Source of the DNA: Ahaetulla prasina
Taxonomy: Eukaryota; Chordata; Lepidosauria; Squamata; Colubridae
DNA length: 64,000 nucleotides
Reading direction: 5' to 3'
Assembly: GCF_028640845.1 (NCBI RefSeq)
Contig: NC_080541.1
Location: 7,718,935 to 7,782,934, forward strand
Shown here piece after piece: positions 4,186 to 57,318 of the stretch (position 1 is the stretch's first letter; every line of letters starts with the position of its first letter). Under the pieces are notes generated by a model. That model saw nothing but the letters and a program-made list of their open reading frames with translations, was not told where the DNA came from and did not search any database. The translations under genes were made by a program, and so were the position numbers.

Positions 4186-4265
4186 CCAGGGGTGTCCAAA
4201 CTTGGCAACTTGTGGACTTCAACTCCCAGAATTCCTCAGCCAGCTTTGCTGACACCTCTGCTATA
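4186..4265. mobile_element. Family B palindromic element, half copy
   Basis: Starts CAGGGGTGTCCAAACTTGGC and runs through GTGGACTTCAACTCCCAG into CCAGCTTTGCTG; the second arm of the palindrome is missing. Confidence 0.75.
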
Positions 4266-5205: not shown

Positions 5206-5597
5206 CAGGAGTGTCAAACAAAATTTCATTGAGGGCCGCATCAGGTTGTGTTTGACCTCGGGGGGTGGGTGGGCGGGGGGTGGGATGAGCATGGCCAGGG
5301 TGGACAGGGCCAGCTTGACATCACAGGGGTGTCAAACTCAAGGCCCGGGGGCTGGATGTGGCCCGCGGGGCCAGCTTGGAAGGAGCGAAGGATCGGGCTG
5401 TGGTGCCTCTGCCTGAGTAAACAGACTCCGTTTTCAGCTAGGACAGCCTCCTGCAACCCTCTGACAGCGAAAACAGCGAAAACAGAGCTCAGAAGTCCGT
5501 TTTCTCAGGCAGAGGCACCACAGCCTGATCCTTCGCTGTTTCCAAGCTGGCCCCGTGGACCACATCCAGCCCCCGGGCCTTGAGTTTGACACCCCTG
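5206..5597. mobile_element. Family C inverted-repeat element (hAT-like)
   Basis: Terminal CAGGAGTGTCAAAC at the left and GTTTGACACCCCTG at the right. Flanks CTCTAGAG (5198-5205) and CTATAGAA (5598-5605) agree at 6 of 8 positions, the 8-bp duplication expected of hAT transposition. Inside, 5324-5597 is itself a long hairpin whose arms contain AGGCCCGGGGGCTGGAT and GCAGAGGCACCACAG with their complements. No transposase is encoded. Confidence 0.8.
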
Positions 5598-5683: not shown

Positions 5684-6134
5684 CAGGGGTGAAATCCAGC
5701 AGGTTCTGACAGGTTCTGGGGAATCGGCAGCAGAAATTTTGAGTAGCTCGGAGAACTGGCAAAGATCACCTCTGGCTGGCCCTAGAGTGGGGTGGGAATG
5801 GGGATTTTGCAATATCCTTCCCCCAGGAGTGGGGAGGGAATGGGGATTTTGCAGTATCCTTCCCCCAGGAGTGGGGTGGGAATGGGGATTTTGCAATATC
5901 CTTCCCCCAGGAGTGTGGTGGGAATGGGGATTTTGCAATGTCCTTCCCCCAGGAGTGGGGTGGGAATGGGGATTTTGCAATATCCTTCCCCCAGGAGTGG
6001 GGTGGGAATGGGGATTTTGCAGTATCCTTCCCCTGCCATGCCCACCAAGCCTCACCCCGCCCACCAAGCCTCACCACACCCACCAAACCATGCCTACAGA
6101 ACCGGTAGTAAAAAAAATTTGAATTTCACCACTG
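5684..6134. mobile_element. Family D element with perfect 8-bp target duplication
   Basis: Begins CAGGGGTGAAATCCAGCAGG and ends GAATTTCACCACTG. It is flanked on both sides by CTTTGGAG (5676-5683 and 6135-6142), a perfect 8-bp duplication typical of hAT elements. A shorter copy at 58851-59102 shows the unexpanded form. This copy is enlarged by an internal tandem array at 5788-6032. Confidence 0.88.
5788..6032. repeat. 42-bp minisatellite, six units, inside family D
   Basis: The block GGGATTTTGCAATATCCTTC recurs at 5801, 5843, 5885, 5927, 5969 and 6011, an exact 42-bp period. Because 42 is a multiple of three, several frames stay open and give repetitive hypothetical peptides of 14-residue period on both strands; I do not regard them as genes. 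Confidence 0.95.
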
Positions 6135-7108: not shown

Positions 7109-7120
7109 GGTTAATGATGG

Positions 7121-7640
7121 GGTATCAAACTCCCATTTCATTGAGGGCCCATCAGGATTGTGTTTGACCTCAGGGGGTGGGATGGACGTGGCCAGGGTGG
7201 GCGTGGCCAGCTTGACATCACAGGGGTGTCAAACTCCCATTTCATTGAGGGCCCATCAGGATTGTGTTTGACCTCAGGGGTGGGATGAGCATGGCCAGGG
7301 TGGACAGGGCCAGCTTGACATCACAGGGGTGTCAAACTCCCATTTCATTGAGGGCCGCATCAGGTTGTGTTTGACCTCAGGGGTGGGATGAGCATGGCCA
7401 GGGTGGACAGGGCCAGCTTGACATCACAGGGGTGTCAAACTCCCATTTCATTGAGGGCCCATCAGGATTGTGTTTGACCTCAGGGGTGGGATGAGCATGG
7501 CCAGGGTGGACAGGGCCAGCTTGACATCACAGGGGTGTCAAACTCCCATTTCATTGAGGGCCCATCAGGATTGTGTTTGACCTCAGGGGGTGGGATGGAC
7601 GTGGCCAGGGTGGGCGTGGCCAGCTCGGCATCACTCATGT
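7121..7640. repeat. 103-bp minisatellite, about five units, inside family C
   Basis: The block TCCCATTTCATTGAGGGCC recurs at 7131, 7235, 7338, 7441 and 7544. Each unit carries the terminal-type motif CAGGGGTGTCAAACTCC, so the array consists of reiterated element ends. A single unit of the same type occurs at 5206-5323. Confidence 0.95.
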
Positions 7641-7690
7641 CAGGGGTACCTGTGGTGGCCAAGTGCTAAGGCAGGACCCTCCCTCACTCT

Positions 7691-7880
7691 CATTATAACC
7701 TTCCTTCCTTCCTTCCTTCCTCCCTCCCTCCCTCCCTCCCTCCCTTTTCTTTTTCCTTCCCTCTTCATTCTCCTTTCATCTTCCACTCTTTCCTTATTTT
7801 TCCTTCCTTGCTCTCTTCCCATCTTCCCTTCTTTTTCTTTTTCTTTCCTCTTTCCTTTTCTCCTTTCCTATCCCTTCTTG
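7691..7880. repeat. Pyrimidine microsatellite (TTCC/CTCC/TTTC)
   Basis: Runs of CTTCCTTCC and CCTCCCTCC followed by irregular pyrimidines, almost free of purines on the + strand. Confidence 0.9.
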
Positions 7881-8183
7881 GATGCTCAAGTGCAAAAGGG
7901 GAATTTTTTTCTCCTTTTGTTTGGTTTTTTGTTTCTTTTGCTAGCCTCTGCCAGTGAAAACGGAGCTCGCGGGGGGCTCATCCAGCCTGCGGGCCTTGAG
8001 TTTGACACCCCTGAGTTAACGGATGGAGGAACAAGAATAGAACCTTTGTTTCTCCGACCACAGCAAATCCTTTGAGTAAATTATTGTTTTATTAATAATT
8101 AAAGGCCACCCCGATCCATTCAGGTTCCACCATACAAGGTGGAGAACAATTCCAAAATACAATAAATTAAAAACAATCCACTA

Positions 8184-19590: not shown

Positions 19591-21028
<1,438 letters not shown>

Positions 21029-21029
21029 G

Positions 21030-21415
21030 ATCGTATTAAATAAATGCAGGTGTAAATAGCAAAACGTTAACCTTGAATTTCCCTTGGGATATACCCCATG
21101 CTATACAGCAGAAATGAAATTTAGCCATATCTATCTGAAAGGAAGAAAACCTTTCATCTCAGATGACACCCCTGTCTCGGCAAAGGAAAAACAGACAAGG
21201 AAGTCTCCTTATCACATTGGCCTAAACCTTAGATAAATGTTTTAGGCTTCTTTTCAGATAAGTGTGGTTCCTCGTTATTTCCCAACCTTTGCTCTAGTAG
21301 TTCAGCAATTATTATGGGTCTGCATGCAAGTTTTTCTTCTTCCCAGAATGTCCAGGGAAAACATCTATAGCAAAATTTGGACTCCCTGTTTCGTTGTAGT
21401 TCCTTTCAAGGTAGC
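21030..21415. other. Unique sequence
   Basis: No gene or recognised repeat. Confidence 0.45.
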
Positions 21416-21423
21416 ATCTAGAG

Positions 21424-21576
21424 CAAGGGTCTCCAACCTTGGTCCCTTTAAGACTTGTGGACTTGTGGACTTCAACTCCCAGACTTCAACTCCCACTTCA
21501 AACCAGCTTTGCTGGCTGAGGGACTCTGGGAGTTGAAGTCCACAAGTCTTAAAGGGACCAAGATTGGAGACCCCTG
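21424..21576. mobile_element. Family B palindrome, perfect 8-bp duplication
   Basis: CAAGGGTCTCCAACCTTGG to its complement. ATCTAGAG flanks on both sides (21416-21423 and 21577-21584). Small internal duplications (GACTTGTG twice, ACTTCAACTCCCA twice) enlarge the left arm, an early step of the tandem growth seen at 32042-32796. Confidence 0.92.
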
Positions 21577-23118: not shown

Positions 23119-23802
23119 CGGTGGTGGGATTCAAATAGTTTAACAGCCGGTTCTCTGTCCTAATGACTGGCTGGCTGGGTGTGGCCAGGATTGGCATGGC
23201 CAGGGGGTGTGACAGGCAACACTCGGTCTCCTGCACCCCCCTGGGAGCAAAAACAGGCCACGGGGGGAGTGTGCTGCCCCCACATGCCTTGTTTTGGGCC
23301 TAGGAGGCATCCCTGTAGCCTCCTAAGAGCAAAAACGAGCTGTGTGGGGGGGCACACTGCACCCCAATTTGTGCCTACGAGGCCTCCCTGAAGCCTCCTA
23401 AGAGCAAAAACGGGCCACGGGGGGGGGGCACACTGCACCCCATTTGCGCCTAGGAGGCTTCCCTGAAGCCTCCTAAGAGCAAAAAGGAGCTGTGGGGGGG
23501 GCACACTGCACCCCATTTTGTGCCTACGAGGCCTCCCTGAAGCCTCCTAAGAGCAAAAACGGGCCACGGGGGGGGGCACACTGCACCCCATTTTGCGCCT
23601 AGGAGGCCTCCCTGAAGCCTTCTGGGAGTGGAAATTGGCCACAGGAGGGGGCGCAACTCCCCCCGCAGCCCCTTTTGAGTTTAGGAGGCTTCCCTGCACT
23701 TATCTGGGGGCCAAAATGGGGTGTGTGTGGAGTCTGGAGAGGGGAGGGGCCAGCCAGCAATTTAACGACTGGTTTTCCCGAACCGGCTGAATCCCACCAC
23801 TG
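23119..23802. mobile_element. Family H element (hAT-like) with internal satellite
   Basis: Left terminus CGGTGGTGGGATTCAAA, right terminus CTGAATCCCACCACTG. Flanks TATCCAAC (23111-23118) and TATCCATC (23803-23810) match at 7 of 8. The body carries a 75-bp tandem array. A right-hand fragment of the family is at 56167-56290. Confidence 0.85.
23243..23660. repeat. 75-bp minisatellite, about five to six units, inside family H
   Basis: The block TCCTAAGAGCAAAAAC recurs at 23321, 23396, 23471 and 23545, with degenerate units before and after (TCTGGGAGTG at 23621). G-runs of 7-9 occur in each unit. The minus-strand frame repeats every 25 residues (FALRRLQG), a consequence of the 75-bp period. Confidence 0.93.
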
Positions 23803-31397: not shown

Positions 31398-32041
31398 GTG
31401 TCGATGACATCATCTAACCATCTCATCCTCTGCCATCCTCTGTCTGCCTGGGGAATTCTGGGAATTGAAGTTCACACTGTTGTGGCCCTCCAGCTGCCAG
31501 CAGAGCTGGCGGCAGACTCAGACGATGAGGAGGTTGGGGAAGAACTTGGTCCTGTTTTGGAACCTGGGGAAGGCTCTGATGGATGCTCAGCATCGGACGC
31601 AGAGGTAGAGCCAGGGCCATCTGGCATTTCCCAGCCAGAGAGACAGCTGCCTTTCGAGTCAGAGATGAGTGAGGAGGAGGAACAGCTGGGGCCTGTTCCA
31701 GATGCGTGTATGCGCAGAGCAGATAGGAGAGGTGAACAACGGAGGACAATGAGCCGCCTCGGGAAGCAAAAAAACATGGACGCTGACTGGCCCCTCCCTG
31801 GCTGGGGAATAAATAGGAGGAAACGGGGTGGTGGTGGTTTGGTTGTCACAGACAACCTAGATTTCTAGAAAGTTTGCTCCTTGTGTGTTTCGTGTGACAA
31901 CGACTGCCTTGCCAGAGCTGAGGTTTGTTTATTTCTCTGTTTGAACTGACTTTAAATTGCAGCCTCCCGGCTGGGAGCCCACTACCTTGCATTTATCCTA
32001 AGGAGCTGATAAGGACCATTGTTTCAATTAACTCCTTACAG

Positions 32042-32796
32042 CAGGGGTCTCCGATCTTGGCCACTTTAAGACTTGTGGACATCAACTCCCAGAGTTGATC
32101 AACTCCCAAAAATTCTGGGAGTTGAAGTCCACAAGTCTTAAAGCGGCCAAGGTTGGAGACGCTGGCTGAGGAATTCTGGGAGTTGAAGTCCACAAGTCTT
32201 AAAGCGGCCAAGGTTGGAGACGCTGGCTGAGGAATTCTGGGAGTTGAAGTCCACAAGTCTTAAAGTGGCCAAGGTTGGAGACCCTGGAAGTCCACAAGTC
32301 TTAAAGTGGCCAAGGTTGGAGACGCTGGCTGAGGAATTCTGGGAGTTGAAGTCCACAAGTCTTAAAGCGGCCAAGGTTGGAGATGCTGGCTGAGGAATTC
32401 TGGGAGTTGAAGTCCACAAGTCTTAAAGTGGCCAAGGTTGGAGACCCTGGAAGTCCACAAGTCTTAAAGTGGCCAAGGTTGGAGACGCTGGCTGAGGAAT
32501 TCTGGGAGTTGAAGTCCACAAGTCTTAAAGCGGCCAAGGTTGGAGACGCTGGCTGAGGAATTCTGGGAGTTGAAGTCCACAAGTCTTAAAGCGGCCAAGG
32601 TTGGAGACGCTGGCTGAGGAATTCTGGGAGTTGAAGTCCACAAGTCTTAAAGCGGCCAAGGTTGGAGACGCTGGCTGAGGAATTCTGGGAGTTGAAGTCC
32701 ACAAGTCTTAAAGTGACCAAGGTTGGAGATGCTGGCTGAGGAATTCTGGGAGTTGAAGTCCACAAGTCTTAAAGCGGCCAAGGTTGGAGACCCCTG
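32042..32796. mobile_element. Family B element expanded to 755 bp, perfect 8-bp duplication
   Basis: Begins CAGGGGTCTCCGATCTTGGC, ends GGTTGGAGACCCCTG, and is flanked by CCTTACAG at 32034-32041 and 32797-32804 (identical). Ordinary copies are 119-153 bp. The right arm has been reiterated into a 61-bp array while the target duplications stayed intact, so growth occurred during or after a fairly recent insertion into the LTR. Confidence 0.93.
32112..32791. repeat. 61-bp satellite with a 163-bp higher-order unit
   Basis: Full 61-bp units (GCTGGCTGAGGAATTCTGGG ...) start at 32161, 32222, 32324, 32385, 32487, 32548, 32609, 32670 and 32731. Short 41-bp units (CCTGGAAGTCCACAAGTCTT ...) lie at 32283-32323 and 32446-32486. 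The order 61+61+41 is repeated exactly at 32161-32323 and 32324-32486, a higher-order repeat of 163 bp. Unit variants (AAAGCGG or AAAGTGG) follow the same order in both. Confidence 0.96.
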
Positions 32797-32933
32797 CCTT
32801 ACAGGACTCTTGCCTGGACTTTCTGTTGGTGAATGCAGTTAATTCCCAAGGTGTAAATAAAGCTTTTGGGTTTTTTTTTCTTTGTGGGGAGTCTGTTTCT
32901 TGCTTCTGCGAAGGCCCTGGTCAGAACACACAC

Positions 32934-41231: not shown

Positions 41232-41327
41232 CAGGGGTCTCCAACCTTGGCAACTTGAAGACTTGTGGACTTCAATTCCCAGAATTCCTCAGCCAGCAAA
41301 TTCTGGGAGTTGAAGTCCACAAGTCTT
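41232..41327. mobile_element. Family B palindrome, right end lost
   Basis: CAGGGGTCTCCAACCTTGGC through the centre to GTCCACAAGTCT, then joined to unrelated sequence. Confidence 0.88.
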
Positions 41328-56787: not shown

Positions 56788-57318
56788 AGATAGTGTGTGA
56801 CTTACAACAGTTTTTAATGACCGTTCGAAGTTACAACAGCACTGACACAAGTGACCTGTGACCATTTTTCATACTTAATGACCGCTGCGGCATCCCCGTG
56901 GTCACATGACCAGAATTCAGATGCTTGACAACCAACTCATATTTATGATGGTTGCAATCAGGGGTCTCCAACCTTGGTCTCTTTAAGACTTGTGGACTTC
57001 AACTCCCAGAGTTCCTCAGCCAGCTTTGCTGGCTTGAGGGACTCTGGGAGTTGAAGTCCACAAGTCTAAAAGGGACCAAGGTTGGAGACCCCTGGTTGCA
57101 ATGACCTATGGTCACGTCATTGCTTTTTACGACTTTTTGACAAGCGGTCAATGCGGTCAAGCCAGATTCATTTAACAAGTCATGTTGCTAACTTAACAAA
57201 TGCAGTGATTCACTTAAAAACCGTTTGAAAGAAAAGTCGTAAAATAGAGCAAAGCTCCCTTTACAAATCTCTCACTTGGCAGCAGAAATTTTGAGCGCAA
57301 CTGTGATCATCAGTTGAG
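56788..57318. mobile_element. Family A element hosting family B
   Basis: GTGACTTACAACAGTTTTTA to CTGTGATCATCAGTTGAG, with GCATCCCCGTGGTCACATGA and GTGATTCACTTAAAAACCG inside. Split at 56959-57094. Confidence 0.83.
56959..57094. mobile_element. Family B palindrome, perfect 8-bp duplication
   Basis: CAGGGGTCTCCAACCTTGGT to its complement, flanked by GTTGCAAT at 56951-56958 and 57095-57102. Nested in family A. Confidence 0.94.

Follow-up and report, generated by a model that had tools for sequence, protein, structure and literature searches.

The 755-bp element at 32042-32796 of the window (the whole 64,000-nucleotide stretch of Ahaetulla prasina DNA analysed here) is best explained as a non-autonomous palindromic hAT-type MITE in which the right arm has become a tandem array. 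It exemplifies a process that recurs in this genome and is not a one-off. We consider it probable that the arm was duplicated once at one end of chromosome-size contig C3 and spread locally, and that similar arrays were founded repeatedly across the genome, with growth biased toward chromosome ends.

The 755-bp element and its family in the window

The element is flanked on both sides by the target duplication CCTTACAG (8/8) and carries a single left arm and 12 head-to-tail copies of the right arm, with right-arm spacings, in order, of 61, 61, 41, 61, 61, 41, 61, 61, 61, 61 and 61 bp. The sequence-only reading had described a palindromic miniature transposon of 755 bp with identical 8-bp target duplications, in which only the right arm had multiplied to give nine 61-bp and two 41-bp units. 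Each of these points is borne out, the unit lengths being right-arm spacings. Features of the element are as follows.

32034..32041: left 8-bp target site duplication, CCTTACAG
32042..32096, plus strand: single left arm, with tip CAGGGGTCTCC
32081..32105: rearranged centre, with ATCAACTC at 32081 and 32098 and the inverse GAGTTGAT at 32092
32111..32160, plus strand: first right-arm copy, which begins AATTCTGGG and is without the linker GCTGGCTGAGG
32124..32796, plus strand: head-to-tail array of 12 right-arm copies
32222..32383, plus strand: block-duplication core, 162 nt identical to 32385-32546
32246..32286, plus strand: first 41-bp unit, with GGAGACCCTG joined to GAAGTCC
32385..32546, plus strand: second copy of the 162-nt block-duplication core
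32409..32449, plus strand: second 41-bp unit, identical to the first
32786..32796, plus strand: sole complete right tip, GGAGACCCCTG, which is absent from the 11 inner junctions
32797..32804: right 8-bp target site duplication, CCTTACAG

Over 61 nt, complementarity of the left arm to the terminal right arm is 89%, with 48 matches across the outer 53 nt, and the number of units in the two inverted repeats is unequal (12 right, 1 left). A 19-base arm motif, allowing up to three mismatches, occurs 25 times in the window (10 inside the element) against a shuffle mean of 0.04; thus, arm similarity in the window is not due to chance. Predicted folding of the left arm with the first right arm gave -48.9 kcal/mol (shuffle mean -14.2), and that of an ordinary copy at 56959-57094 gave -76.6 kcal/mol (shuffle mean -20.1). 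With ATCAACTC present twice and its inverse in between, the centre of the element looks like a template-switch scar, judging by sequence pattern. An origin by side-by-side insertions was rejected; the half elements share one orientation, and no target duplication lies inside. The intact outer duplications had been taken to indicate a fairly recent insertion. They do not support that reading: at 6% divergence, all 16 bases would still be unchanged in an expected 37% of cases.

Ten pieces of the family reside in the window: the 755-bp element, seven other two-ended copies, a one-ended copy at 41232 and a fragment at 31444. Other roughly full-length two-ended copies measure 119, 121, 122, 136, 140 and 153 bp, in agreement with the 119-153 bp previously given as normal for the family (family B), and a 74-bp internal-deletion derivative is also present at 4187-4260 with target duplication CTATAAGC (8/8). 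Target duplications of the eight two-ended copies, a tally that leaves out the one-ended copy and the fragment, are 8/8 in five cases, 7/8 in one and lacking in two. The inner-arm sequence GCTGGCTGAGG is exact in 5 of the 9 other family pieces. We take family B to be hAT on the basis of tip sequence and target-duplication length: the 755-bp element displays both the 8-bp target site duplication (8/8) and the short terminal inverted repeats starting CAG (CAGGGGTCTCC at both ends) of this superfamily. A family copy at 21424-21576 has a left arm with local 8-bp and 14-bp duplications.

A 29-base family pattern had no matches among viral contigs, and a 21-base pattern had none among collected genome contigs of bacterial, archaeal and viral collections, which have little bearing on a reptile. 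Two contigs (L001 and L002) found with an 18-base pattern resembled the element over 20-35 bases only and were taken as chance. Among the literature matches listed for the family strings, MITE, hAT and tandem arrays, there was no report of the window's family.

The window contains additional repeats. A second hAT-like element at 7117-8013 has a one-sided tandem left end of five 103-104 bp units and a target duplication of 6/8. At 5206-5597, a 274-bp element is fused to one 103-bp-like unit, with the junction found in the 7117 array, and the target duplication is 6/8 around the composite and 3/8 around the inner element. Tandem Repeats Finder assigned a minisatellite at 23292-23620 periods of 75 (86% matches) and 149 (94% matches); plain shifts of this array revealed no dimer advantage (0.717 at 75 versus 0.722 at 149), and the suggestion of a dimer level comes from the Tandem Repeats Finder figures only. 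The same program detected a 42-bp tandem repeat at 5785-6033 (5.9 copies, 95% matches). On the minus strand, a 409-codon open frame at 19874-21100 resembles, by eye, a LINE reverse transcriptase and is a candidate for one.

Unit order and the 163-bp level

Each 61-bp unit is an arm running from GCTGGCTGAGG to GGAGAC, and the 41-bp unit is a 61-bp unit minus 20 bases, plus one G to C change. The nine 61-bp units vary at three columns, all by transitions, with 40 differences over 36 pairs, 11 of 36 pairs identical and a mean identity of 98.2% (59.9 of 61). All nine of these later units contain the linker GCTGGCTGAGG that is missing from the first right arm.

An exact duplication of the order 61+61+41 had been proposed. 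The order of unit lengths is indeed repeated, but the sequence is not exact. Block 32124-32286 differs from block 32287-32449 at 2 of 163 positions; over 164 registers, differences number one (122 registers), two (38) or three (4), with a longest exact match of 162 nt. Exact 163-bp duplication was therefore rejected. Tandem Repeats Finder reports 3.0 copies of 163 bp in the element, and a third block (32450-32612) has 3/163 differences to each of the other two. No 41-bp unit closes this block; it matches because a 61-bp unit begins almost as a 41-bp unit does.

Multimers of a higher-order repeat should be much more alike than monomers, and their order should go beyond chance. Blocks of 163 bp are 98.2-99.4% alike (160-162 of 163), barely closer than single 61-bp units. 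With gaps counted, identity in the window array is 0.936 for units three apart versus 0.838 for neighbours, as a genuine 163-bp higher-order repeat would predict; however, this three-unit period was equalled in 60 of 500 unit-order shuffles, and the peak is due to the two 41-bp units. Because block copies are inexact and so many shuffles are as strong, the higher-order repeat previously claimed for this element is not supported, and we regard it as very unlikely. A single duplication of three units is enough to account for the 163-bp level. Simulated block duplication left two marked units at least two apart in 55, 80 and 94% of cases, versus 0% with single-unit steps, a result that, with parameters of our own choosing and no deletion or conversion, shows only that block steps suffice.

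Unit order went beyond shuffles in three of eight arrays, namely L016 (1/500), L048 (0/500) and L050 (3/500), and fell within shuffles in the window array (L003; 60 of 500) and in L011 (303), L034 (146), L022 (220) and L014 (262). The first three are long arrays of 87, 68 and 77 arms, respectively, and likely have real higher-order structure. Two levels of satellite organisation had been proposed for one element; the proposal is not supported for the window array and finds support in longer arrays of the family (three of the eight tested).

Shared junctions, array places and chromosome position

An exact genome scan with the junction 21-mer GGTTGGAGACGCTGGCTGAGG yielded 28 matches, and a backwards control pattern yielded none. 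All 28 are on C3 at 6.07-7.75 Mb, in five places (7 in L012, 10 in L011, 1 in L029, 3 in L030 and 7 in the window) that span 1.7 Mb at one chromosome end of a 1.77-Gb genome. The window element, L011 and L012 are separate insertions: perfect target duplications differ among the three (CCTTACAG, TTCTACAC and ATCTAGAT, each 8/8), and their flanks have no mutual match over 150 nt. L029 and L030 are 3 kb apart and have a common flank (98.7% over 154 nt) that represents a local duplication; therefore, not every spread was by transposition.

Relationships among these places are consistent with movement of an expanded arm. The 41-bp breakpoint of the window is also present in L011, twice, as GGAGACGCTG joined to GAAGTCC. 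The column-21 base of 7 of the 12 arms of the 755-bp element also occurs in the printed L012 and L030 units. It is missing from the element's own left arm and, of the 14 other window arms aligned, from all 13 that are not gapped at this column. The left arm of L012 belongs to another subtype (38/44 to that of the window), yet 37 of 120 right-arm pairs show no difference, a combination that looks as though another MITE copy had acquired an array arm. Right arms of the window and L011 have a mean identity of 0.89, no closer than their left arms (40/44), and arm exchange is thus suggested by L012 only. The sequence-only reading had the array form in place, and held that identical 61-bp arrays elsewhere would count against this. 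A genome-wide search found just that, the same 61-bp junction recurring at four further places near this end of C3. Because GGTTGGAGACGCTGGCTGAGG occurs at five C3 places, three with different intact target duplications, the window array was probably moved or exchanged after the first duplication instead of being born at 32042.

A genome search with the 755-bp query returned 472 matches; 40 of 3836 candidates were scored, and the matches listed correspond to 38 places including the window. The proposed check for other expanded copies thus uncovered at least 37 further places with tandem arms in the same genome. Among the matches listed, array places have 3-87 right arms with a modal spacing of 48-114 bp, and exactly one left arm at 30 of 38 places, none at 4, and two or three at 4, a left arm being counted if inside the array or no more than 260 bp before it. 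Array ends were set by tip search, and the arm finder adds one false window arm (13 for 12) that was removed before unit-order, class and position analyses. Arrays range from minisatellite to small satellite, with 0.69 kb in the window and up to 87 arms and 5.7 kb at the others. Among the matches listed, the largest array with an 8/8 duplication is L016, whose 87 arms span 5661 bp between copies of GTCTGAGG. Also among the matches listed, target duplications are 8/8 at 7 of the 38 places and 7/8 at another 7, scores that carry a slight favourable bias because at some places the best-scoring pair among a small number of tip pairs was taken; outward-shifted control pairs reach 7 in 0 of 290 cases. 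The remaining 24 (15 below 7/8 and 9 not measurable) are without a good target duplication, and a bounded insertion is consequently not demonstrable for many arrays. In L053 (C10), L055 (C14), L049 (C13) and L054 (C1), with arrays of 88 and 111/114 bp, the unit extends beyond the MITE tip and takes in other DNA. Their beyond-tip junctions include CCCCTG joined to GACTAGATGACCTC, and L053 and L055 have the same junction on different chromosomes.

Of the 1.77 Gb of the genome, 1.76 Gb is contained in 18 chromosome-size contigs. Among the matches listed, with L029 left out, junction strings fell into 18, 16 and 12 classes at edit distances of 3, 4 and 5, respectively. Same-class pairs were on one chromosome more often than in permutations at each distance among the matches listed (21/79 versus 7.7, p 0.0004; 21/83 versus 8.1, p 0.0006; and 27/170 versus 16.6, p 0.015). 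At edit distances 3-5, the window junction shares its class with a near relative, GGAGACCCTGGCTGGGG, that occurs on C1, C3 and C6.

Arrays are concentrated near chromosome ends, and the source element is dispersed. Among the matches listed, 37 of 38 arrays are within 9 Mb of a chromosome end, the exception being at 23.6 Mb on C1, and 32 of 33 remain so without the five C3 places with the window junction. Uniform spread predicts a fraction of 0.18 within 9 Mb. Unexpanded copies, represented by the 39 nearest relatives of each of two window copies (those two excluded), are this close in 14 of 78 cases (9/39 and 5/39), a difference from the listed arrays (Fisher 1.5e-17) that compares not quite like with like because arrays were chosen by one query and controls by two other copies. 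On large chromosomes alone, 29 of 30 arrays among the matches listed are near an end versus 8 of 60 unexpanded copies.

In the explanation we favour, the first arm duplication would have occurred once on the C3 end, presumably by template switching or slippage of a polymerase at the hairpin-forming arm. The expanded arm may then have reached neighbouring sites by local transposition or by arm exchange between nearby MITE copies, with slippage or unequal exchange altering unit number at each site, and the 163-bp block may reflect one local duplication of three units. Genome-wide, the same process would have been founded many times with different junctions, and arrays would grow or persist mainly near chromosome ends while the MITE itself inserts widely.

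Birth of the array at 32042 after insertion, with later seeding of other C3 places, is in our judgement improbable. Tips and target duplication are intact there, window units are homogeneous, and the locus could be the source of the other C3 places; against this, the first right arm is without the linker present in every later 61-bp unit, and L011 has more arms (23) and more varied units. Far less credible is independent origin of the 61-bp junction at each C3 place. Occurrence of the near relative GGAGACCCTGGCTGGGG on three chromosomes indicates the region may be join-prone, but the exact 21-mer is limited to 1.7 Mb of the genome and the 41-bp breakpoint is also common to the window and L011. 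Tandem arrays are error-prone in assembly; yet an artefact is the explanation to which we give least credence, as this array is under 1 kb, has private variants and has at least 37 similar counterparts in chromosome-size contigs.

The main alternative to the position part of our explanation, and the only part on which it bears, is that array-forming MITE subfamilies insert mainly near ends and growth is independent of position. Control copies are related to two other copies in the window rather than to array arms, which leaves room for such subfamilies. Nonetheless, the 78 same-family controls are widely spread, and we think insertion bias unlikely, if deserving of some weight. Local spread from a single C3 duplication, with repeated founding and end-biased growth elsewhere, remains the preferred explanation.

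Meaning and comparison with known systems

It has long been asked why tandem arrays form from some pieces of transposons but not from most. In this genome a single short element displays both outcomes, as dispersed unexpanded copies and as near-terminal arrays with readable founding junctions. The system makes it possible to separate where an element lands from where arrays grow, and makes founding events countable. We tentatively suggest, as a possibility short of an even chance, that position rather than the identity of the element decides fate: chromosome ends may amplify the hAT MITE arm, and the expanded arm may re-enter the transposon cycle nearby, giving end-specific clans of arrays with private junctions. 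If so, re-entry would proceed by local hopping or arm exchange, and the system would amount to the life cycle of a mobile minisatellite, for which the many unexpanded insertions provide an internal control.

Drosophila FB elements contain 31-bp units grouped in 155-bp blocks. An earlier remark that higher-order repeats are usually discussed in settings other than hairpin transposons is uncontradicted, there being no text on such repeats in a hairpin transposon among the literature matches listed; tandem growth inside inverted repeats, on the other hand, has already been described. A beet repeat has been likened to higher-order structure (PMC2820488), and the sSat3 satellites of squamates show an alternating di-/trimeric pattern in some species (PMC10702118). 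A table of snake satellites includes one of 64 bp and 37.5% G+C (PMC9913375).

The sSat3 satellites, derived from SINEs and found especially in snakes, are subtelomeric, more strongly so for longer loci (PMC10702118). As in the MITE arrays, tandem units derive from part of a dispersed element and one side of the array retains an element end, and there are many loci with varied units and a clear subtelomeric preference (PMC10702118). The window array differs in its source, a hAT-type MITE arm instead of a SINE, and unlike in sSat3 as described there (PMC10702118), target duplications bound some MITE arrays and junctions are common along one chromosome end. That SINE-derived arrays are already known at snake chromosome ends, and MITE arrays are found there too, suggests chromosome region, more than source element, drives array growth.

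Unequal unit number in two inverted repeats, as described for Galileo and Tm1, is also seen here (12 versus 1). In the Galileo F group of Drosophila mojavensis, units grow in the terminal inverted repeat and the two repeats are unequal, but units are of ~210 bp, with up to three copies described in the text consulted, and the element is of the P superfamily (PMC3573991). Tandem units of the inverted repeat likewise expand within Tetris of Drosophila virilis (TIR-220), where alleles with 3 and 4 units and arrays of up to 66 copies are described; this is a foldback element with ~220-bp units (PMC4079207). Unit number is unequal between the two inverted repeats of Tm1 of root-knot nematodes, a Mutator-like element with 14-bp units (PMC3169594). 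Tandem repeats are tied to MITEs in Xstir and miDNA4 of Xenopus, and a 16-copy hobo tandem of Drosophila provides hAT-superfamily DNA in tandem, all from families other than that of the window (PMC12628747, PMC9659126). The opening part of the mechanisms section of one review (PMC12628747) does not describe one-armed arrays at chromosome ends. Collectively, the closest precedents are the SINE-derived subtelomeric satellites of snakes, Galileo and Tetris.
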